Notes under the pieces: generated by a model | The model's input: the letters and a program-made list of their open reading frames with translations, nothing else | Databases searched by the model: none | What the model was told of the DNA's origin: nothing | Position numbers and translations under genes: made by a program | Shown: positions 16,040-44,871 of the stretch, piece after piece | Numbering within the stretch: the first letter of the stretch is position 1 | How the letters are laid out: each line of letters starts with the position of its first letter | Assembly (NCBI GenBank): GCA_945890885.1 | Contig: CAMDDF010000005.1 | Span: forward strand, 1 to 45,006 | Reading direction: 5' to 3' | Source of the DNA: Candidatus Kuenenia stuttgartensis | GTDB taxonomy: Bacteria; Planctomycetota; Phycisphaerae; Sedimentisphaerales; CAMDDF01 | Length of the DNA: 45,006 nt

Positions 16040-16241
16040 ATAGGCTTTTAAACCCCTGCGGTGTTCGTAAGGTTCGAAGGCATTTGAAAAACCTATGAAG
16101 ATGCCTTGGAACGCCGGGTCTATACGGATCGTCAATGCCTGCTCGACAGGACTGATGGACGTAAGCAACAGCGTTCCACCTTTAATTAAAGGGTTTTTTT
16201 CAAAGTTCAACCGACGGCACACGTGGAGGCAAGCCTATAAG
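16040..16241 (+). ncRNA. ssrS: 6S RNA
   Basis: About 200 bases that fold into one long rod with a central bubble, as in 6S RNA, the RNA that binds the sigma-70 RNA polymerase in stationary phase. The ends pair: ATAGGCT near 16040-16046 with AGCCTAT at 16232-16238. Inward there are GGTTCGAA with TTCAACC, TTTGAAAAACC with GGTTTTTTTCAAA, and TGGAACGC with GCGTTCCA. The conserved 5' bubble strand CCTGCGGTGTTCG (16054-16066) is a known 6S hallmark, and the opposite strand has GACGGCACACGTGG. A promoter and a terminator flank it closely. Pairings were found by eye; a covariance search would settle it. The open frame on the other strand is a by-product of the structure. Confidence 0.85.
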
Positions 16242-30125: not shown

Positions 30126-30659
30126 AACTTAAATTCCTTATAATAACGTGCTTACAGATTATCAGCAGGCCATAAAAGAGTCAAACAGAAAATCGTCAAC
30201 GATTCTTCAATCCTGTCGTGTCGCTTGCGCTCGGCGCTTTCATTTGACGCGATAACAGCAGCCGAAAGGGCAATGAGGAATTATGAAACCATAATGAGGA
30301 AACAATGCTCCAATGTCGAATTTCGAAATTAACGACAACCACCATATGTCATTCCGAGTGAGAGTCCCCATATTGTCATCCCGAGTGAGCGAAGCGACGA
30401 GGGATCTGAGATTCCTCCGCTGCGGATACTTCGTATCCTCCGGTCGGAATGACACATTGGTGTTTCCTGCGGTCAACGGTCGACGGAAAACGGTCAACGA
30501 TTCATTCAAATTCCTATCGTGTCGCTTGCATTCGCCGGACGAAAAATATAAAAAATGTTAAACATTTGGCAAAATAGCACTTAAATTCCCTAAGAACGGG
30601 AAATTATCGGCGATTCCGTTAAAATAGGCAAAATAATCACCATCTGGCATTTTTTTTCC
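30126..30659. other. Repeat-filled spacer upstream of the PEP-CTERM gene
   Basis: From left to right: GTCAACGATTCTTCAATCC, the inverted CCTGTCGTGTCGCTTGCGCT module with CGGCGCTTTCATTTG, a CCGAAAGGGCAATGAGG stretch, TGTCGAATTTCGAAATTAAC (cf. 28300), the inverted C/D block (30348-30453), CGGTCAACGGTCGACGGAAA, and again CCTATCGTGTCGCTTGCATT. 30550-30659 is AT-rich. No gene is seen here. Confidence 0.75.
30348..30453 (-). repeat. Dispersed GTCATTCCGACCGGAGGATAC...GGGATGAC repeat, copy 2 (inverted)
   Basis: The core 30375-30453 reads GTCATCCCGAGTGAGCGAAG at the left and ends GGATCC-like CTCCGGTCGGAATGAC at the right, the reverse of copy 1. An extra GTCATTCCGAGTG at 30348-30360 looks like a second broken end. 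Confidence 0.88.
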
Positions 30660-35918: not shown

Positions 35919-37247
35919 ATGACGGCACGAAAAGATGTTATCGCCAGAATAAGGAATAAAATACGGGATTTTCCATCGGGGCCGGGACTGTATTTTATGA
36001 AAGGTTCAAGCGATGTCGTGCTGTATGTCGGCAAAGCTAAAAATCTTCGCAGCAGGGCGGGAAGCTATTTTCAGCCGGGGGCGGATATCGACACTTCAAG
36101 AGGGCCAAAAATTGGCGAACTGCTCAAAAAAGTCGAGGACGTTGACTTCCTTGAAACCGAATCGGAAATTGACGCGATTCTTCAGGAAGCTCGGCTGATA
36201 AAAGATATTCACCCGACCTACAACAGCCAGCTCACCGACGACAAAACATTTCCATACCTCGAAATAACAAAGGAAGATTATCCTGCGGTTTATATCACAC
36301 GCAATCCCAAAGACGGCTCCAAGCTGTTCGGGCCGTTTACCGCTGTTTCGGAGCTTCGCTGGGCGATAGTGGTTTTGCAGAAAATCTTCAGGTTCCGAAC
36401 ATGCAAACTTGAGATACAACAGGCAGACCCCAAACGTCAATACTTTCGGCCATGCATACTGCACAGCATAAAACAATGCACCGCTCCGTGTGCGGACAGA
36501 ATATCCAAAGCTGACTACGGGCAAAGCATCAAAGACCTCATGAAATTTTTGAATTCCAAGAGAACCGCGATTTTGCGCGAGCTTGCCAAAGAGATGCAGG
36601 ATGCCTCTGCCAATCTCGAATTTGAAAAGGCCGCCGGGCTTCGCGATAGAATCCGCCTGATAGAAAAACTTGCCGAGCGAGGAAGCGTCGAAGATAATGT
36701 TCAGCCGGAAGCGTTTGCGTCTGACCCTGCCGATGCTCTCATTGAACTGCAAAAGGTTCTGGGTATGGATGAGCCGATACGGATAATCGAGGGGATAGAT
36801 ATCGCGCATATTCAGGGCACCGACACGGTCGGGTCGCTGGTGAAATTTATCGACGGCAAGCCGTTCAAGGCAGGCTATCGAAGATTCAAAATCAATACCG
36901 TCAAGGGCGTGGACGATTTCGCAAGTATTTACGAGGTCGTTTCGCGCAGATACAAACACGCTGCCGACGGCGAAGAGCTTTGGCCAGACCTTGTGCTGAT
37001 AGACGGCGGGCTGGGGCAGTTAAGTGCCGCAAGGGATGCGTTCAAAAAAATCCAATGGCCTATGCCCAAGCTGATAAGCCTTGCCAAACGCGAGGAAGAA
37101 ATATTCACGCTCGGCAGCAGCGAGCCGATACGCCTGAAAGCGACGAGCCCCGCCAGAAAATTATTGCAGTATGTGCGCGATGAATCGCACAGATTTGCCC
37201 AGCATTACCATCATCTTCTGCAAAAAAAGAGATTGCTAAACGAATAA
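35919..37247 (+). CDS. uvrC: UvrC-type nuclease lacking the C-terminal HhH domain
   Basis: A 442-residue excinuclease subunit that cuts on both sides of a DNA lesion. The GIY-YIG domain is at about residues 14-95 (GPGLYFMKGSSDVVLYVGKA, KNLRSRAGSYF, LKKVEDVDFLETESEIDAIL). The UVR helix pair is at about 205-240 (LEFEKAAGLRDRIRLIEKL). The RNase H-like domain follows (IIEGIDIAHIQGTDTVGSLV, DLVLIDGGLGQLSAA, VRDESHRFAQHYHH). It ends there, about 150 residues before the usual length of near 600, so the tandem helix-hairpin-helix DNA-binding domain is missing. A repeat module starts about six bases after the stop. Whether this is a clade trait or a local truncation cannot be told from one sequence. 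Confidence 0.92.
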   Translation: MTARKDVIARIRNKIRDFPSGPGLYFMKGSSDVVLYVGKAKNLRSRAGSYFQPGADIDTSRGPKIGELLKKVEDVDFLETESEIDAILQEARLIKDIHPTYNSQLTDDKTFPYLEITKEDYPAVYITRNPKDGSKLFGPFTAVSELRWAIVVLQKIFRFRTCKLEIQQADPKRQYFRPCILHSIKQCTAPCADRISKADYGQSIKDLMKFLNSKRTAILRELAKEMQDASANLEFEKAAGLRDRIRLIEKLAERGSVEDNVQPEAFASDPADALIELQKVLGMDEPIRIIEGIDIAHIQGTDTVGSLVKFIDGKPFKAGYRRFKINTVKGVDDFASIYEVVSRRYKHAADGEELWPDLVLIDGGLGQLSAARDAFKKIQWPMPKLISLAKREEEIFTLGSSEPIRLKATSPARKLLQYVRDESHRFAQHYHHLLQKKRLLNE

Positions 37248-37675
37248 AAACCGTTGACCGTTTTTAACAACGAATTATACAAATTAACTCGAATTTTTAT
37301 TTGGTTATCGCCCGGCAAATGAAAGCGCCGAGTGCAAGCGACACGATAGGACTTTGAATCGTTTCCCGTCGTCCGTCAACCGTTCACCGTAAGAACACAC
37401 CAACGTGTCATTCCGACCGGAGGATACGAAGTATCCGTAGCGGAGGGATCTCATTGAATCTGCTAAACCATGAGATCCCTCGTCGCTTCGCTCACTCGGG
37501 ATGACAACAGGGGGCGTTCATCTTTCCATCTGTGGCTAAAAAAAAATCCGCGAAATCCGTGTCTAAAACAGCAGCTAGCAATAAGCAGTAAGCTAACCGC
37601 TAATAGCTATTAGCTAAAAAATCGGTGTCCATCTTTGGCGAATTTTAAAAGCATCCATATCTGAAAATGGCGCAT
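37248..37675. other. Repeat-filled spacer downstream of uvrC
   Basis: In order: ACCGTTGACCGTTTTTAACA, an AACGAATTATACAAATTAAC/TCGAATTTTTATTTGG stretch, GGCAAATGAAAGCGCCGAGT with GCAAGCGACACGATAGG, AATCGTTTCCCGTCGTCCG, the C/D block (37407-37505), an AATCCGCGAAATCCGTG piece, and AGCTAGCAATAAGCAGTAAG with CTAATAGCTATTAGCTA. Its first 250 bases match the segment inside the terminase-like gene (about 44408-44644) module for module. No gene is seen here. Confidence 0.8.
37407..37505 (+). repeat. Dispersed GTCATTCCGACCGGAGGATAC...GGGATGAC repeat, copy 4
   Basis: Begins GTCATTCCGACCGGAGGATA and ends CTTCGCTCACTCGGGATGAC. The middle ATTGAATCTGCTAAACCATG is the mirror of the middle of copy 3. Confidence 0.92.
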
Positions 37676-37704: not shown

Positions 37705-37730
37705 TTGTGAGTGCTGATATTTTATTCTGA

Positions 37731-38369
37731 TTATTTCTTGCGTCTAATCAACAATCCGCCAAGGCCAAGCATAGCAATGGTCATTGGTTCCGGAGTAGGA
37801 ATCTGCTCGGTGCAGAATGCAACTGATCCGTCGAATTTTACCCTTAAGCCAAATTCGCCTGTTTCGCTATTTTCGATTTCATAGCCTGAGCCAGCGGTAT
37901 AGGTTACGGAACCCATCCAGCCTGTTACTGTTGAGTGAGGCCACGTCTGTCCGCTTGAAACCGTAGGAGTGGTGTATGTCCATCCGATAGGGGCTACTAC
38001 GCCTGTGATAGTGAAAGGCTTAGTCATAAAGATATTGAACTGATAGCCTGTCCATGTGAATCCTGTGGCATTGTCCACATCCTCAATAATCCATACGATT
38101 GGGTCAAGCTCAGAGTTTGCGGTGAAATCGCCTTCAACGTGTGCAGGTGCCGAATACTGTGCGCCGTCCATTGTCAGCGTGTAGGTTTCGATGCCGCCTT
38201 CCAAGCCGGTAGGTGTCCAGCTAAAATCATGCGTCGCATCAACTGGGTCCATCACAATTGCACCGTCGCCGTCAGCTGCGCAGTTTACATCTATTATAGC
38301 TGCGTTAGCCGGGGAAGTTAAAACGATGCACATACTTAGAATTGCAACTAACAAACAGATCTTTTTCAT
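37731..38369 (-). CDS. PEP-CTERM exported protein 2
   Basis: A 212-residue secreted protein with the signal peptide MKKICLLVAILSMCIVLTSP and a cut after ANA. The C-terminus is PTPEPMTIAMLGLGGLLIRR, then KK: a PEP motif, a hydrophobic helix and a basic end. The middle (about residues 30-180) is a beta-rich domain with many Thr, Gly and Trp and no family I recognise. The ATG at 38369 has GGAGAG seven bases before it; a GTG two codons upstream abuts the same site and is unlikely. A long structured leader and its own promoter lie upstream. First in order of four PEP-CTERM genes on this strand, but it looks separately transcribed. Confidence 0.85.
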   Translation of the reverse strand: MKKICLLVAILSMCIVLTSPANAAIIDVNCAADGDGAIVMDPVDATHDFSWTPTGLEGGIETYTLTMDGAQYSAPAHVEGDFTANSELDPIVWIIEDVDNATGFTWTGYQFNIFMTKPFTITGVVAPIGWTYTTPTVSSGQTWPHSTVTGWMGSVTYTAGSGYEIENSETGEFGLRVKFDGSVAFCTEQIPTPEPMTIAMLGLGGLLIRRKK

Positions 38370-38548
38370 AGCCACTCTCCTTTTTACAAATTACTAATCT
38401 CATGTTCTGAGCGGTGAGGGCGATTGGGGAAGAAAAGGAAGGGGATAGCCACCTCGGCTATATATACAAAACTGGCATTCTCTTCTCTTCCTCGCTCTTT
38501 CGCTCCGGATTCGTGCGATTTTGCCACCGCAGTTACCCGACTTTCTAT
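38370..38548 (-). promoter_or_regulatory. Long structured leader of PEP-CTERM gene 2
   Basis: On the minus strand GGAAGAGAAG (38491-38482) can pair with CTTTTCTTCC (38437-38428, one G-U pair), enclosing a perfect ATAGCC/GGCTAT hairpin. The order of elements and the words GCACGAA, AAAGAGCGAG and TATCCCCTTCC match the leader of PEP-CTERM gene 1. The helix is kept although its bases differ between the two. Confidence 0.45.
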
Positions 38549-38577
38549 ATTTAACAGCCGCTTGTCAAAATTGTCAA
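38549..38577 (-). promoter_or_regulatory. Promoter of PEP-CTERM gene 2
   Basis: On the minus strand TTGACA (38577-38572), a 17-base spacer and TTAAAT (38554-38549). The -35 box is perfect. The leader would be about 170 bases. Confidence 0.55.
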
Positions 38578-38701
38578 GTAAATAATGCGAAAAAGGCGAA
38601 TATTTTTGCATTTCAAGCGGTTTTTTCGGACGAGCGGCATCGGCTATGTGCGGGAGAAATCGGCATAAAGGTTTGTAAGCTAATTGTTTTGGATGGGTTA
38701 T

Positions 38702-38732
38702 AAAAAAAAAGGCAGGTTTTTTAGGCCTGCCT
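38702..38732 (-). terminator. Terminator of PEP-CTERM gene 3
   Basis: On the minus strand AGGCAGG (38732-38726) pairs with CCTGCCT (38716-38710), then a run of nine T residues. Same hairpin and loop as in genes 1 and 2. Confidence 0.88.
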
Positions 38733-38757
38733 CGGTGATTCGTGAATTTGGTGATGA

Positions 38758-39606
38758 TTATTTCTTGCGTCTTAGCATCAGTCCGCCGAGAGCAAGTATT
38801 GCGATGGTTGCCGGTTCCGGAACAAAATCGACACGGTCGCCGCCGTTAAGCAGGCTTGTCTCAAGATAGTCCACGTATCCGGTTGATGCTGCCGCGAAAG
38901 AGCCAGCGCCGATTAGCACGCTTGTTACCTTTGCTCCCTCGCCAAACAACAGTGTTCCCCACGTCGCATCAGCGGCCCAATCAGCCAGCGACTTGTTGGC
39001 GCTAGGAGCTGTATAGTAGGGGTTTCCCGACTGGTCATATAACTTCCATGTTCCTGATGCGGCAGTTAGACTGACATCTTCCCATGTATAGTAGGGCGTG
39101 TAATTCCCGACATATGTAAGGGTCAGGTCATAAGCTGATTCGCCGGAGCGTGTCGCGGTGAATCCATTTTGAGATGCCGCCCAATTTGTTGACTGAACGC
39201 CAATCTTGATGGTCGTGTTGGTTGCGGTTTCCCTGTACCGACGCATGTTTGCAAAGAAGCCGTCCTGCCAGTTTCCTGTGGCGAATCCCTTGTTTGTGTC
39301 GATATTGCTGAATGTTGCCTTACCGCCGGTTCCTGCTGCGAAGACCAGTTTAAGAGCCGTAGCTCCACCGGGTGCATCATTTACGAATTGAATCTGATTC
39401 GCGATGGCTAGGTCATCCGCTGCGGTTGCGGTTTGCCCTGGCTTGCCCGCATAGGTATTGTTGATTCCGACAAGGTCGATGCCGCCGCTGGTACGGGTGT
39501 CATCTGAATACCAGCCCTGATCTCCAAACGCACCTACATCAATGGTAGATGCCAAAGCCGCTGTGGCCGTGAGGCAAACTACCAATACTGTTACTAACTT
39601 CTTCAT
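38758..39606 (-). CDS. PEP-CTERM exported protein 3
   Basis: A 282-residue secreted protein. The signal peptide is MKKLVTVLVVCLTATAALAS. The C-terminus is FVPEPATIAILALGGLMLRR, then KK. The mature part begins TIDVGAFGDQGWYSDDTR and is rich in Thr, Ala, Gly and aromatic residues, as in secreted beta-sandwich proteins; no catalytic motif stands out. AAGGAGAAAG lies just before the ATG at 39606; an upstream ATG at 39690 would put 28 extra residues before the signal peptide and is rejected. Function unknown; cell-surface or matrix location follows from the tail. Confidence 0.87.
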   Translation of the reverse strand: MKKLVTVLVVCLTATAALASTIDVGAFGDQGWYSDDTRTSGGIDLVGINNTYAGKPGQTATAADDLAIANQIQFVNDAPGGATALKLVFAAGTGGKATFSNIDTNKGFATGNWQDGFFANMRRYRETATNTTIKIGVQSTNWAASQNGFTATRSGESAYDLTLTYVGNYTPYYTWEDVSLTAASGTWKLYDQSGNPYYTAPSANKSLADWAADATWGTLLFGEGAKVTSVLIGAGSFAAASTGYVDYLETSLLNGGDRVDFVPEPATIAILALGGLMLRRKK

Positions 39607-39710
39607 TCTTCTTTCTCCTTGCGCACTATGCGCACTAAACAATGTTGCTCTATCAAATACAGGGAGGATGCACGTGCATTTTCCTCTCAACTCTCCAAAA
39701 ACATAAAACG

Positions 39711-39743
39711 AAAAGACCCAAGAAGGAAAACCTTTTTGGGTCT
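39711..39743 (-). terminator. Terminator of PEP-CTERM gene 4
   Basis: On the minus strand AGACCCA (39743-39737) pairs with TGGGTCT (39720-39714), followed by TTTTCGTTTT. This hairpin differs from the one used by PEP-CTERM genes 1 to 3. Confidence 0.75.
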
Positions 39744-39761
39744 GTGAACCGCTATTATAGG

Positions 39762-40400
39762 CTATTTTTGTCTTCTAGTCAACATTAATCCGCCAAGAGC
39801 AAGTATCGTCATTGTCATCGGCTCCGGAATTGCGGTGCTGATGAATGAATCGCTCAGGGTTTCTACTTGCGAGCTATTGATTGTACAATTAATAGCTTTG
39901 ACGTGGATGCCGATGGAAACTTCGCCAGCAGCCATATCGTCCAGAAGATTCTGATATGTTTTGCCGGACTTGAGCGTAAAGCCTACCGACACCCACTCGC
40001 CTGGTTTGACACCATTTGCAGGCTCCGGGGTTACCGCTTCGGTTGCCGCCAATAGCTTTAGAACGAGTTTGTCCGGTTTATAGTCGGGCAGGTTGTTTGG
40101 GGTAACATTTGCTCCCAGATTTTCGAAATCAACATTAGGCAGGGAATCATCGATTGTGAACATATCTAAGAGTACGCCATCATAAAAATAAATCTCGGAT
40201 ACTGACGACAGCGTCGGGCCAGCGTTGCGGAAATTAAATTTTACACCCGACCCATTTGCAATGACATCGACAAATAACTGCCCCTCGATATTTGCCGGAC
40301 AATTTTCCGTGATGCGGTCAAACGCAAATGTTACCGGCGTTGCTTGCACACTTGCGGCACAGAGCAACGCAAATACTAACACCATCTCCCACTTCTTCAT
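39762..40400 (-). CDS. PEP-CTERM exported protein 4
   Basis: A 212-residue secreted protein with the signal peptide MKKWEMVLVFALLCAASVQA and the tail IPEPMTMTILALGGLMLTRR, then QK. The mature part (VTFAFDRITENCPANIEGQL, FVDVIANGSGVKFNFRN, then SVSEIYFYDG) resembles small beta-sandwich PEP-CTERM proteins; I cannot name a family. GAGAGGAAAGAG lies before the ATG. An ACTATAATATAG stretch about 65 bases upstream may be the -10 region. Confidence 0.87.
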   Translation of the reverse strand: MKKWEMVLVFALLCAASVQATPVTFAFDRITENCPANIEGQLFVDVIANGSGVKFNFRNAGPTLSSVSEIYFYDGVLLDMFTIDDSLPNVDFENLGANVTPNNLPDYKPDKLVLKLLAATEAVTPEPANGVKPGEWVSVGFTLKSGKTYQNLLDDMAAGEVSIGIHVKAINCTINSSQVETLSDSFISTAIPEPMTMTILALGGLMLTRRQK

Positions 40401-40491
40401 TCTCTTTCCTCTCCCAAAGAAAAGTCCCAGTTATGTGCCTCTGCTTCTCCAGTTAGCTATTATGTGCTATATTATAGTTTGGACGTTAAAC

Positions 40492-41277
40492 TTATTTTCG
40501 TTTTCTTGCCAGCAGTAACCCGCCAAGGCCAAGTATCGCCATCGTCATCGGTTCTGGAATGTTGAACGTATCTGATGTTATTCCCAAACCGTTAAAATCT
40601 TTTTTGGCGATATAAGCACTTGTTCCGGCTTCGCTTTGTGTCAGCAGGGTATTATCCAGATTGATAGATACTTTTGTTGCATAATGGTTCGCCCAGCCGC
40701 TGGCAGCCAATTTAGCCGTCAAGTCTGCTGTTACGGTTCCTGTCCAGATTGCAACCTGTGTATCAACGGTAAGATAATAATCGCCATTTGACGGATTGAA
40801 AGTCATATCAGCTGTGAATTGAATGGGATTGATACTAATCGTTGCCTGAGTAATCGGGTTCCAAACCTCATAGATGTTAATGAACAAGCTATTGATTACC
40901 ATTGCAAATGTTGCGCTGGTTCCGGCTCCCAACAATCTGTAATCGCCAGCCTCATGAAAAGTAACATTGTCAATGTACTTGCCATCTTTTGCGATAATCG
41001 TTGCGAGAAGCTGTCCATCGGTCATATCGGATGCGCCGCTGCCGGCTGAATACGATTTGAAGATGGGGTTAAAATCAAGCGTATCGCCGCTGATGATTGG
41101 TGTCCCAAAAAGCGGCACAGCATCAGTAACGGAGTCTTCGGTTACATTGTGATACACAACCGTTGAGCCGGTGAATGTTCCGTAATTGATACTTGTTGCG
41201 TTGCATATTGGCAAGCAAACGACCAGACTAACTATCAGCCCCATAAAAAACAATGCGGTAACGCCACTTCTTTTCAT
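40492..41277 (-). CDS. PEP-CTERM exported protein 5
   Basis: A 261-residue secreted protein. Signal peptide: MKRSGVTALFFMGLIVSLVV, with a cut after CNA. The tail is NIPEPMTMAILGLGGLLLAR, then KRK. The mature part begins TSINYGTFTGSTVVYHNVTE and has GDTLDFNPIFKSYSAGSGAS and NPSNGDYYLTVDTQVAIW; it is similar in style to PEP-CTERM proteins of unknown function. GGAGG lies just before the ATG at 41277; the upstream start at 41313 would place the ribosome-binding site inside the gene. No clear terminator is seen between it and gene 4. Confidence 0.87.
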   Translation of the reverse strand: MKRSGVTALFFMGLIVSLVVCLPICNATSINYGTFTGSTVVYHNVTEDSVTDAVPLFGTPIISGDTLDFNPIFKSYSAGSGASDMTDGQLLATIIAKDGKYIDNVTFHEAGDYRLLGAGTSATFAMVINSLFINIYEVWNPITQATISINPIQFTADMTFNPSNGDYYLTVDTQVAIWTGTVTADLTAKLAASGWANHYATKVSINLDNTLLTQSEAGTSAYIAKKDFNGLGITSDTFNIPEPMTMAILGLGGLLLARKRK

Positions 41278-41562
41278 CTTTTTTCCTCCAAAAAAAGTCA
41301 ATAGCAGATCCATCTATTGTTAACGGAAATCATCCAGCTTGTAATAATACACCAAATCCCAGCGTGATGCAAGAAAAAATACAAAAAATGCCATAAATTT
41401 TACCCATCTTAACAAAATTTATGATAATCTCCCGTTTTTTATAGGACTTAACCGCCCATCTGCCAAAGGGTTACCCATTTTAATATTTTTTGCGAATTTA
41501 TCAGTATTTTCTGCTGACCGCCGCAGATTTTTTCTGCCAATTCACGAAAAAGTACCGCAGAG

Positions 41563-42888
41563 CTATTCTTTAGCAAGTTTGTTTTCTAAACTCTTTATTG
41601 GAATAAAGTACATTGTTCGTCCGACTTTCAGGGATATGAGCAATTCCTGTTTTACCAGTTCCATCAAATCCGTTCTCGCGGTTTCGTAGGCGATGTTATG
41701 GCTTACCTTGTGCGAATTGACGGTGTACCTGAATCCGGGATGACGGAGTGCGTGGCTTATCAGGGCTTGCTGGCGGTGATTTAGCGTCTGCATTCCCCGA
41801 AGCTGCTGCTCAACAGCCCTTAGCTGTTCAGATTTGGTTTTTATGTATTTATGCAATGATTGAACGGCCTTATCGATAACGTCAAGATGGTAGAGTATGA
41901 AATATGTCAAGTCGTTATCATCGGTTTCGGTATATAAAAAAGCTCTCTCGTATTTCGATGAAGCATTGAGGATAATTTCCGAAATTGAAATATATTCAAA
42001 CATCCAATATCCGTGATTCATCATCGACCAGTAGAATAAAGCTCGTGCGGTTCTTCCGTTGCCGTCAATGAACGGATGGTCGTACGCAAGCCAGAAATGC
42101 AGTATAATCGAGCGTATCACCGGATGCACGAATGCTTCCGGTATCTTGCAATTCGCGAAATCGCAGAAAAGCTGCATCCGATATTCGAGTTCGCTTGCGG
42201 CGGGCGGTTCGTGAAAAACATTATTGTAATCATCTACGACGCGTATTTTTTCATCTTCTAATCGGAATCGGCCAGCGGCATCGGGCTTGTCAAGCGTATG
42301 CTCCGTAACCATTCGATGAATATCAAATACGATTTCTTTTGTTAAAGGCTTATCTTTGAGCTTGCGAATCTGCTGCATCGTTTTGAAATTATTCAATATC
42401 ATCTGTTCGCTTTTGTCGCGAGGCGCTCGGCCGGACTTGAGCATCTCCTTTGCCACTTCGCGGGTGGTAGCGGCGCCTTCGATTTGGCTGGAGGTAATCG
42501 CCTCATTGACCAGCGAACTAATCAGGTATCGGTCTCGATTCTCGGAATTGATTGCCGAGCTATCCATTAGTATCTGGCCAGCAGCGCCCTTGTCGATTTC
42601 GTGAAGACTTTTTGTAACCGAATCGATAATGGCATAACGGAAGAGTTCTTGTTTTTTGTTTTTAAAAGGAATCAGTTTATAGAGCGACTGTCGGGCATTT
42701 TTTATTCCGAGCCACCAAATCTTGTGGCTAAGTTTATCTGGAGCCTTGTAATATGATAGCTTGTCCCAATGCAAATATTTATTGTCAACAGTTGCGGAAA
42801 AAATATCATTTATAATATTTATAAAAAGAGTGTCCTCCTCTTTTTCTGTTAATTCAACCATTTTTGGTGGTGTTTTCGGTATTCGCAT
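41563..42888 (-). CDS. Fic-domain protein with self-inhibition motif and C-terminal winged helix
   Basis: A 441-residue protein of the Fic family, which transfers AMP (or a related group) from a nucleotide to a target protein. The Fic motif is HPFIDGNGRTARAL with His271. An N-terminal inhibitory helix carries SSQIEGAATT, the (S/T)xxxE(G/N) self-block of class II Fic proteins. The last about 75 residues (HRQQALISHALRHPGFRYTV, then YETARTDLMELVKQELL) form a winged-helix domain that could bind DNA. The region upstream of the start has many TTACTAA words, which suggests self-regulation. Its target is unknown. The next gene on the same strand is the terminase-like gene upstream. Confidence 0.92.
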   Translation of the reverse strand: MRIPKTPPKMVELTEKEEDTLFINIINDIFSATVDNKYLHWDKLSYYKAPDKLSHKIWWLGIKNARQSLYKLIPFKNKKQELFRYAIIDSVTKSLHEIDKGAAGQILMDSSAINSENRDRYLISSLVNEAITSSQIEGAATTREVAKEMLKSGRAPRDKSEQMILNNFKTMQQIRKLKDKPLTKEIVFDIHRMVTEHTLDKPDAAGRFRLEDEKIRVVDDYNNVFHEPPAASELEYRMQLFCDFANCKIPEAFVHPVIRSIILHFWLAYDHPFIDGNGRTARALFYWSMMNHGYWMFEYISISEIILNASSKYERAFLYTETDDNDLTYFILYHLDVIDKAVQSLHKYIKTKSEQLRAVEQQLRGMQTLNHRQQALISHALRHPGFRYTVNSHKVSHNIAYETARTDLMELVKQELLISLKVGRTMYFIPIKSLENKLAKE

Positions 42889-43104: not shown

Positions 43105-43143
43105 TTTATAAGTATTTACAGTTAATTGCTTTATGGTGATTTT

Positions 43144-44871
43144 TCAGTATTGCCGACTTATAACTGCAGATTTTTTCTGATAATTCACGAAAAAGTACCG
43201 CAGTGCATCTATCGGGTGGTCGAAGATTCCGTCCTTGTCGGGCAGTTCCGCATCGCTTCCGCTGACAGCATCGGGGTAATGGTAGCACTGCAACGCCTCT
43301 ATCAGGCGGGGGCATCTTGGGCTGATTATCATTTTCGATTTGCCCAGCCCATCACGCATCGCCGCACGGACAAGCTCGATACCCTCTGCGATTCCGCTCC
43401 GCCTGTATTTTGTGCGGATACCTATATTATATAGTTCGCGGACGGCCGACGTGCCGGTAACATCGTTCCTGCCCGCACCGGCTGGGTCGCAAAACGTCGC
43501 CGCAACTTTCGATTCATCGCACGGCGTAATCCGTTTCACCTCCTCGGCATGCACAGCTATCGGCGCTCGGCTCCGGTAATATTCGTCGATGATGCGAATC
43601 GTTCCGTCGTAGTCCGGCTGAATCCACAGGCACACGAACGGGTTGATGTATCCGAAATCCATCGTGCGATAGAGCGGCAGGGCGGGGTCGTAGTCGATTC
43701 GTCCCACATGCACGTCCGCATCGAAATCCTCGAACACCGCATTATTACGAGAGGGACGTTTGCACATCATTTCGCTTTCCCAGCCTGCTCTGCTGCTTCG
43801 CCGCATCATCGTTATGCAGTCGTCGATTGCCAGATAGCCGTCAGCGGTTTTTGCTTTGCCTTGGCAGTCGCTATCGAGCGGACACGTTGAGCAGTTTCTA
43901 TCGGTGCAGCGTTCGATGACTTCCATCACGCACCACTGGAATATCGGCGTATGATTTTTCACGGCGCTAGCGACAACTTCGTGCATCAGCCCGTAAGACT
44001 TGTGCATCGTCGAGAGGATTTCCATTGAGCCTGCGATGCCGTTGCTGCTTTTGGTGATGAACTTTGCCGCTTCGAATACGTCTCGGTCGAACAGCTCGAT
44101 TTCGTCGCATCGGAGTTTGTGAATATGGCTTCCTCGGACGCTTTTCGATGATTGCGTGAGGACTTCGACGTTTGAGCCGTTGAGGAATTTGCAGCCGTCT
44201 TTGAGGATATTGCCGTCGAGTGCGTGCTCGAAACCGTTGCGGAGAATTTGCGTGATGTAGTCGTACATTCGCGATGATTGCTCGTATGAGCCGCCGAGGA
44301 TACGCACCTTGCAGCCTGGCTTGAAGATGCAGTCGAGTACCGTCGCGATAGCTGCAAGAAATGTCTTACCGCCGCCGCGACCCGCCCAGACGATGCAATC
44401 TTTGGAAGAATCGTTGACCGTTTCTTTTTGCCACGAATCACACGGATCTTCTCGAATTTTTATTTGGTTATTATCCGGCAAATGAAAGCGTGGAGCGCAA
44501 GCGACACGACAGGATTTTGAACCGTTGTCCGTCAACCGTCGACCGTTCACCCACATTGTCATTCCGACCGGAGGATACGAAGTATCCGCAGCGGAGGAAT
44601 CTAAAGCCGATAGATCCCTCGTCGCTTCGCTCTGTCGGGATGACACGGGGTGGTTGCTTGCGTTCATTGCTTCTAACGTCTCACTTCCAACTTCTAACTT
44701 CTCTTTGAAGCTGTGCCACAGATAATCCATCGGGCTTGCGTGATTGCCGCACATCGATTTATCGGGAACGCTGATTCCCATAAACGCCTTGACATAGTTC
44801 CGCAATTGCTCTTTCGTACGCGGGCAATAATTCTTCATCTGCGCATTGATACTGATAATTTGTTTTGACAT
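43144..44871 (-). CDS. Phage terminase large subunit-like ATPase/nuclease with in-frame repeat insertion
   Basis: A 575-residue protein like the large subunit of phage terminases, which packages DNA. Walker A is VWAGRGGGKTFLAAIA (about residues 161-176), Walker B is LRCDEIELFD, and the coupling region is EILSTMHKSYG. The nuclease half has YRTMDFGYINPFVCLWIQPD and AATFCDPAGAG with acidic residues. CTDRNCSTCPLDSDC is a four-cysteine, possibly metal-binding, insert. Residues about 60-155 are encoded by a composite copy of the dispersed intergenic repeat (about 44408-44700): the part PVSSRQSEATRDLSALDSSA, for instance, is translated repeat. The frame stays open through it. AGGGGA precedes the ATG. 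No other phage genes are seen, so it may be a relic. The protein may or may not still work. Confidence 0.82.
   Translation of the reverse strand: MSKQIISINAQMKNYCPRTKEQLRNYVKAFMGISVPDKSMCGNHASPMDYLWHSFKEKLEVGSETLEAMNASNHPVSSRQSEATRDLSALDSSAADTSYPPVGMTMWVNGRRLTDNGSKSCRVACAPRFHLPDNNQIKIREDPCDSWQKETVNDSSKDCIVWAGRGGGKTFLAAIATVLDCIFKPGCKVRILGGSYEQSSRMYDYITQILRNGFEHALDGNILKDGCKFLNGSNVEVLTQSSKSVRGSHIHKLRCDEIELFDRDVFEAAKFITKSSNGIAGSMEILSTMHKSYGLMHEVVASAVKNHTPIFQWCVMEVIERCTDRNCSTCPLDSDCQGKAKTADGYLAIDDCITMMRRSSRAGWESEMMCKRPSRNNAVFEDFDADVHVGRIDYDPALPLYRTMDFGYINPFVCLWIQPDYDGTIRIIDEYYRSRAPIAVHAEEVKRITPCDESKVAATFCDPAGAGRNDVTGTSAVRELYNIGIRTKYRRSGIAEGIELVRAAMRDGLGKSKMIISPRCPRLIEALQCYHYPDAVSGSDAELPDKDGIFDHPIDALRYFFVNYQKKSAVISRQY
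44408..44702 (+). repeat. Composite intergenic repeat inside the terminase-like gene
   Basis: Modules in order: GAATCGTTGACCG, an ATCACACGGATCTTCTCGAA/TTTTTATTTGG piece, CGGCAAATGAAAGCGTGGAG with GCAAGCGACACGACAGG, CCGTTGTCCGTCAACCGTCG, the C/D block (44558-44644) and TTCTAACGTCTCACTTCC with AACTTCTAACTTCTC. The first 240 bases match 37248-37505 in order and orientation. CTTTGGAAG at the left and CTTTGAAG at the right edge may be a remnant of a target duplication. Confidence 0.85.
44558..44644 (+). repeat. Dispersed GTCATTCCGACCGGAGGATAC...GGGATGAC repeat, copy 5 (inside a gene)
   Basis: Begins GTCATTCCGACCGGAGGATA and ends CTTCGCTCTGTCGGGATGAC. It is the only one of the five C/D copies in the window that lies inside a long coding frame. 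Confidence 0.92.

Follow-up and report, generated by a model that had tools for sequence, protein, structure and literature searches.

The window analysed here is the whole of contig CAMDDF010000005.1 (45,006 bp; contig C5 of draft genome G000, Candidatus Kuenenia stuttgartensis, GCA_945890885.1, which comprises 2.14 Mb in 152 contigs and is 96% complete), and our subject is a terminase large subunit-like gene near its end that carries a copy of a dispersed intergenic repeat in frame. The gene occupies 43144..44871 on the minus strand, the contig ending 135 bp upstream of it, and is an open reading frame (ORF) of 575 amino acids (aa). Pfam recognised Terminase_6N (E=2.6e-5) and Terminase_6C (E=1.1e-5), both above cut-off, a PHROG terminase profile matched at E=2.3e-26, and Foldseek returned the large terminases of D6E (1.5e-11), T4 gp17 and HK97. 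The protein has the N-terminal ATPase with Walker A/B motifs and the C-terminal RNase H-like nuclease of this class. It divides into a conserved N-terminal helical domain upstream of the insert (residues 1-54, 44710..44871, minus strand), for which tblastn matched residues ~7-59 in orthologues and the predicted local distance difference test score (pLDDT) is 72-91; a linker that is variable in the orthologue alignment (residues 55-157, 103 codons, 44401..44709, minus strand); and a conserved ATPase-nuclease core (residues 158-575, 43144..44400, minus strand), which is 44-67% identical to orthologues. In the AlphaFold model the N-terminal helices and the ATPase domain are of fair to good confidence, while pLDDT falls below 50 at residues 72-99 and 102-153 and residues 72-153 have neither confident structure nor secondary structure.

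When the DNA of the whole gene was compared with its own genome, 53 off-site matches were found, one at the 3' end (last codons) and the other 52 at 44406-44661 on the minus strand, within the linker. The repeat is therefore limited to a single segment, at least 44406-44661, and the rest of the gene is unique apart from a short duplication at its 3' end. Its copies lie in ~50 other places in the genome, where they are partial and mostly 71-97% identical, and 153 of the 164 repeat segments in 591 kb of G000 fall outside ORFs, as in high-copy, mostly intergenic palindromic repeats of the general repetitive extragenic palindromic (REP) kind. The core of the element is an imperfect palindrome of 89 bp (44557..44645, unstranded) with outer arms TGTCATTCCGAC / GTCGGGATGACA and inner arms GGATACGAAGTATCC; it has the ends TGTCAT/ATGACA, sits inside a composite of ~250 bp, and the stretch 44550-44650 folds as DNA with z=-2.6. 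The last ~50 bp of the linker (44662-44709) are TTCTAACTTC-like simple sequence, which gave no dispersed matches above threshold in its own genome. The longest intergenic copy of the composite (37246..37506, plus strand; 77% identity, E=5e-51) lies directly 3' of a uvrC-like gene and has its modules in the same order as the linker copy, with 2 stops and 2 frameshifting indels in the homologous frame; a partial copy at 30374..30529 (minus strand, 79% identity) has 1 stop and 5 frameshifting indels. Since several other copies carry such stops or frameshifts, the open frame is not intrinsic to the repeat element. Within 44401-44709 the coding frame is the only one of six that is open, and mononucleotide shuffling puts the chance of 103 codons without a stop at 0.4%. 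A sequence-only reading of the window had described about 290 bases (about 95 residues) of the spacer repeat seen at 37248-37505, passing without a stop through a terminase-like gene between the N-terminal helix and the Walker A strand, the break lying in a loop position, a possible reason for its tolerance. Its extent was right to within ~10 residues, the alignment and the AlphaFold model confirm the position, and the supposed loop proves to be a predicted disordered linker.

Of 148 genomes of the same order, 118 have an orthologue, and a class-wide sample gave 90 of 120 once matches that were weaker or partial were counted; the named relatives are Sedimentisphaerales/Phycisphaerales-type planctomycete metagenome-assembled genomes, and the gene is mostly single-copy where kept. 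A search of viral contigs with the terminase protein alone returned no relatives. In 102 orthologues of the order the linker, bounded by 'PMDYLWHS' on one side and by the Walker A strand 'D-x-I-V-W-A' on the other, spans 8-52 aa, with a mode of 13, against 103 in the window. The window segment is absent from all 102, which answers the search for an orthologue without it that had been proposed from the sequence. Insertions elsewhere in the orthologue alignment, from which the rearranged gene of G107 was left out, are few and short. A search of the 148 relatives with the window insert as DNA, in which only 5 candidates were scored for each genome, gave just short palindrome matches in three of them, so these genomes do not have the element at the linker site by common descent. 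Two irregularities were seen among the orthologues: in G107 (L068 and L069) the gene is apparently split over two distant chromosomal places, and G012 (G012:C17) and G036 (G036:C3) each have one in-frame TAG in the terminase gene.

The same linker has been filled in other lineages with repeats of their own. We compared 21 other long linkers with their own genomes, scoring at most 40 candidates per genome, and in 13 the linker DNA belonged to dispersed repeats of that genome. The 144-bp linker of G055 had 24 further matches, that of G029 had 34, and that of G095 had ~35, including reverse-strand ones of its palindrome; the linkers of G093, G069, G135, G121, G067, G112, G140, G118, G117 and G127 also matched dispersed copies. 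As an internal control, 60+60 flanking coding bases in those ten genomes matched only other terminase genes. Across lineages the repeat families are unrelated in sequence, and they are always in frame and stop-free. Examples are GTAGGGGCGAAT...ATTCGCCCCTAC in G093, GGCATGGGCTTCCAGCCCATGC in G069, GGTGGCAGCCTCAAG...CTTGAGGCTGCCACC in G095, arrays of GGATTGCGGATT in G121 and G112, GCCCCGCAATTCATTGCGGGG in G118 and a GTCATCCCGAG-type element in G055. Even close relatives differ: within genus g28, where linkers differ at 4-5% core dN (nonsynonymous divergence), G037 and G052 have one linker in common, and G093, at a core dN of 0.04, has another. With shared cases counted once, this amounts to ~13 demonstrated insertions of ~ten families. 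The state 'linker of at least 23 aa' needs at least 16 changes on a tree built from 99 core sequences; some of these changes may be losses, and several branches of that tree are poorly supported. Linker DNA is also the more palindromic: the palindrome z-score is below -2 in 11 of 35 linkers versus 5 of 69 equal-length control DNAs of the same genes (Mann-Whitney p=0.001), though this score by itself misses some repeat-derived linkers. All 34 linkers of at least 20 aa are open in frame, mostly with odd composition, and the product of their shuffle probabilities is ~2e-20. In close pairs, the ratio of nonsynonymous to synonymous substitution rates (dN/dS) is ~0.07-0.17 in the core and ~0.35-0.66 in the linker where alignable, with synonymous changes saturated or absent in several linkers. 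The core is under purifying selection, and the linker is relaxed.

From these observations we propose that a palindrome-bearing non-coding repeat, resembling REPs or miniature inverted-repeat transposable elements (MITEs) and dispersed between genes of this planctomycete, was probably copied, in frame, into a terminase-like protein that is functional and vertically kept, at the disordered linker that joins its N-terminal helical domain to the ATPase domain. The frame has stayed open, and its translation would yield ~90-100 new residues. The window is then one case of a recurrent process, about a dozen other lineages of the order having taken unrelated local repeat families into this linker, likewise in frame; selection would remove out-of-frame and stop-bearing insertions, and structural tolerance of the flexible spacer is probably the main reason for the repeated use of this site. 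We give this account as a whole a probability of roughly 85%.

Several points weigh against it. The AlphaFold model is weak overall, with a mean pLDDT of 60, and that the protein is made is something we infer. The genome set contains no second member of the family to which the window belongs, and because no closely related genome is available there is no empty site at high identity, dN/dS or date for the window insertion. Copies of the linker were not found in the own genomes of 8 of the 21 cases (G083, G037, G138, G091, G025, G060, G021 and G072), which is not evidence of absence because at most 40 candidates were scored in each. The insert junctions show no target-site duplication or direct repeat, and a Y1 transposase (PF01797) was not found in G000, a draft that is 96% complete. 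The suggestion from the sequence that the repeat is or was mobile thus stands in part: its ~50 partial copies speak for past dispersal, and the marks of a mover are missing at the insert and in the genome. Dispersal of REPs by Y1 transposases is a published model (outlined in PMC8266576). Among 14 repeat-carrying genomes tested, 12 encode a Y1 transposase of the REP-associated tyrosine transposase (RAYT) type, 11 of them above the curated cut-off; G000 and G135 do not. A Y1/RAYT-type HuH transposase is therefore a plausible mover in genomes that carry one and is unsupported for G000, where the cognate enzyme of a REP/RAYT system was not found.

Is this linker special among genes? We surveyed 591 kb of G000 (437 ORFs of at least 150 aa), 400 kb of G093 (261) and 319 kb of G055 (239), deliberately including the terminase contigs; the survey required at least 3 other copies in the sample, which makes the count of repeats a lower bound. 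Over these 1.3 Mb, the terminase was the only gene of a recognised family with an interior repeat of the intergenic type, and its linker had one in each of the three genomes. The other repeat-bearing ORFs either encoded genuine repeats of the protein itself (judged by inspection as Sel1-like and similar), had the repeat at an ORF end, or belonged to no recognised family; of six ORFs with repeats, five had no Pfam family and one matched fn3 below threshold and had its repeats at both ends. The terminase linker stands out among the surveyed genes, and tolerance is the simplest reading of this, the linker being a dispensable flexible spacer in a gene otherwise strongly constrained.

The explanation that survives best beside tolerance, which we consider unlikely and still worth weighing, is that the linker is a preferred site of DNA capture, where breaks (made, for example, by the enzyme cutting near its own gene) are filled with repeat DNA or to which elements are guided. 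In its favour are the many unrelated repeats inserted independently at this one position and the near absence of other genes hit in the survey. A second kind of insertion at the 3' end of the gene points the same way. In five genomes including the window, this end is duplicated (75-97% identity over 75-99 bp) ~1.2-1.6 kb downstream: in the window the copies lie at 41476-41563 and 43119-43206 and bracket a Fic gene, and elsewhere they are L151 2314-2412/3617-3715, L185 4405-4479/5699-5773, L188 4410-4505/5617-5712 and L204 4383-4462/5591-5670. The 1.2-1.6-kb cassettes between these direct repeats hold the Fic gene (window), an ImmA/IrrE-type peptidase (two genomes) or an unnamed gene pair (two genomes), and no integrase was found within the five. 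This looks like repeated cassette insertion, and it is a hint of targeting. Phage packaging sites often lie within terminase genes. The packaging-site idea draws on this general phage knowledge, and may apply here by analogy; against a preferred site, no common target motif or fixed junction has been established, the insert ends vary by several codons, and disorder alone predicts tolerance. One could go further and imagine a conserved, domesticated terminase gene as a hotspot of capture at the DNA level, whose linker repeatedly takes any local repeat in frame and whose 3' end repeatedly takes toxin- or defence-like cassettes bracketed by copies of that end, perhaps because the enzyme cuts its own locus, with linker length and sequence diversifying the DNA motor; we regard this as speculative and doubtful.

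The other explanations fare worse. It had been suggested as an alternative that the gene is dead and its frame open by chance, and a long terminal branch in the core tree (0.67 vs a median of 0.24) would suit a pseudogene. We found no stop or frameshift across the 575 codons, intact core motifs (WAGRGGGKT, LRCDEIELF, DFGYINPF and DHPIDALRYFF) and only 2 differences at the 92 near-invariant columns, which are 97% conserved in the other orthologues with the rearranged gene L068/G107 ignored. Together with the 0.4% shuffle probability for the insert and the conservation of orthologues across the order, this suggests a gene that looks alive, and since the insert also falls in a predicted disordered linker, a dead gene is very improbable. 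An assembly artefact, in which two contigs were joined across the repeat, comes to mind in a draft of 152 contigs with the gene at a contig end, repeats being classic misjoin points; the flanks are the two halves of a single orthologous gene and agree in order, orientation and frame, and insertions of this kind recur in many genomes that were assembled independently, so we hold a misjoin to be a slim chance. Removal of the segment after transcription or translation, in the manner of an intron or intein, would also explain tolerance and has as little going for it, given that Rfam finds no intron in the window, Pfam finds no intein domain, and the 34 long linkers all keep an open frame that splicing at the RNA level does not require. 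The least credible alternative, an ancestral protein domain lost elsewhere from which the intergenic copies derive, has the similarity to those copies and nothing beyond it in its favour, and is opposed by ~50 intergenic copies, several with stops and most frameshifted in the homologous frame, by linkers of other lineages that are unrelated in sequence, and by the lack of conservation at the protein level.

In-frame capture of a repeat by a functional terminase has partial precedents. Rickettsia palindromic elements (RPEs) are dispersed palindromic repeats of ~100-150 bp that lie in frame in genes staying functional and add tens of residues (Ogata et al. 2000, reviewed in PMC10969869). The window insert appears, from its sequence, to share this in-frame placement in a gene that remains functional. 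RPEs differ in being limited families spread over many proteins of one genus, whereas here a single protein site has, across many lineages, received ~ten families unrelated to each other; several other copies of the G000 element are also broken in the homologous frame by stops or frameshifts, and the host phylum is another. REPs tagged with GTAG/CGTC have been described wholly inside ORFs, often of DNA-processing proteins and, it was suggested, in flexible linkers, in many species including the Planctomycetes/Verrucomicrobia group, with clusters encoding 43-82 aa (PMC3733652, BMC Genomics 2013). Reuse of about the same site is reported there for the recB genes of two Xanthomonas species alone, the REPs of the remaining genes lying at different positions, and the text does not mention terminase. 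Such REPs are stem-loops of 20-40 bp with the tag at one end; by inspection, the window element has neither a GTAG nor a CGTC tag. MITEs and the intragenic enterobacterial repetitive intergenic consensus (ERIC), BOX and QMITE1 elements resemble it as short non-autonomous repeats able to make in-frame fusions (PMC10969869). MITEs are marked by terminal inverted repeats and target-site duplication; the window insert has no target duplication, and we found no full-length terminal inverted repeats or clear ones of the whole insert. In the literature we found no report of repeats in terminase, or of one protein position repeatedly filled by unrelated families. In-frame palindromic repeats are already known; what appears to be new is the form seen here, in which a single protein site captures repeats of many families again and again. 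It offers a natural replicate series for the origin of protein sequence de novo from non-coding repeats, with many independent, readable insertions of ~ten families into one loop of one conserved enzyme. The series makes it possible to study which properties of an insertion (frame, composition, disorder) its tolerance requires, and how fast the content of linkers turns over. The choice between tolerance and targeting of repeats in genes, a question standing since the Rickettsia elements, becomes addressable here.

The terminase itself resembles the phage enzymes of T4 (gp17), D6E and HK97 in its ATPase and nuclease domains and their motifs, and differs from them in being retained, mostly in single copy, by the majority of genomes of an order and also outside it. 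Its neighbours in the regions read are ABC ATPase, GNAT, ParB-like and small-terminase-like genes and cellular genes. Among the neighbours scanned in the 20-kb regions read, protein clustering and inspection showed no capsid, portal or tail genes beside it, and a literature search on planctomycete gene transfer agents found nothing relevant. A domesticated packaging-like module is possible. In many genomes (L064 1216-10394, L061-L080) an upstream cluster runs from sigma/helix-turn-helix (HTH)-like, ABC ATPase, GNAT and ParB-like genes through a small-terminase-like HTH gene to the large terminase.

Elsewhere in the window, a 6S RNA at 16050-16233 (plus strand), above the Rfam gathering score, is the only Rfam match. 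Four consecutive genes at 37719-40558 have a related C-terminal coding segment, a direct repeat, like a secreted family with a common sorting signal.
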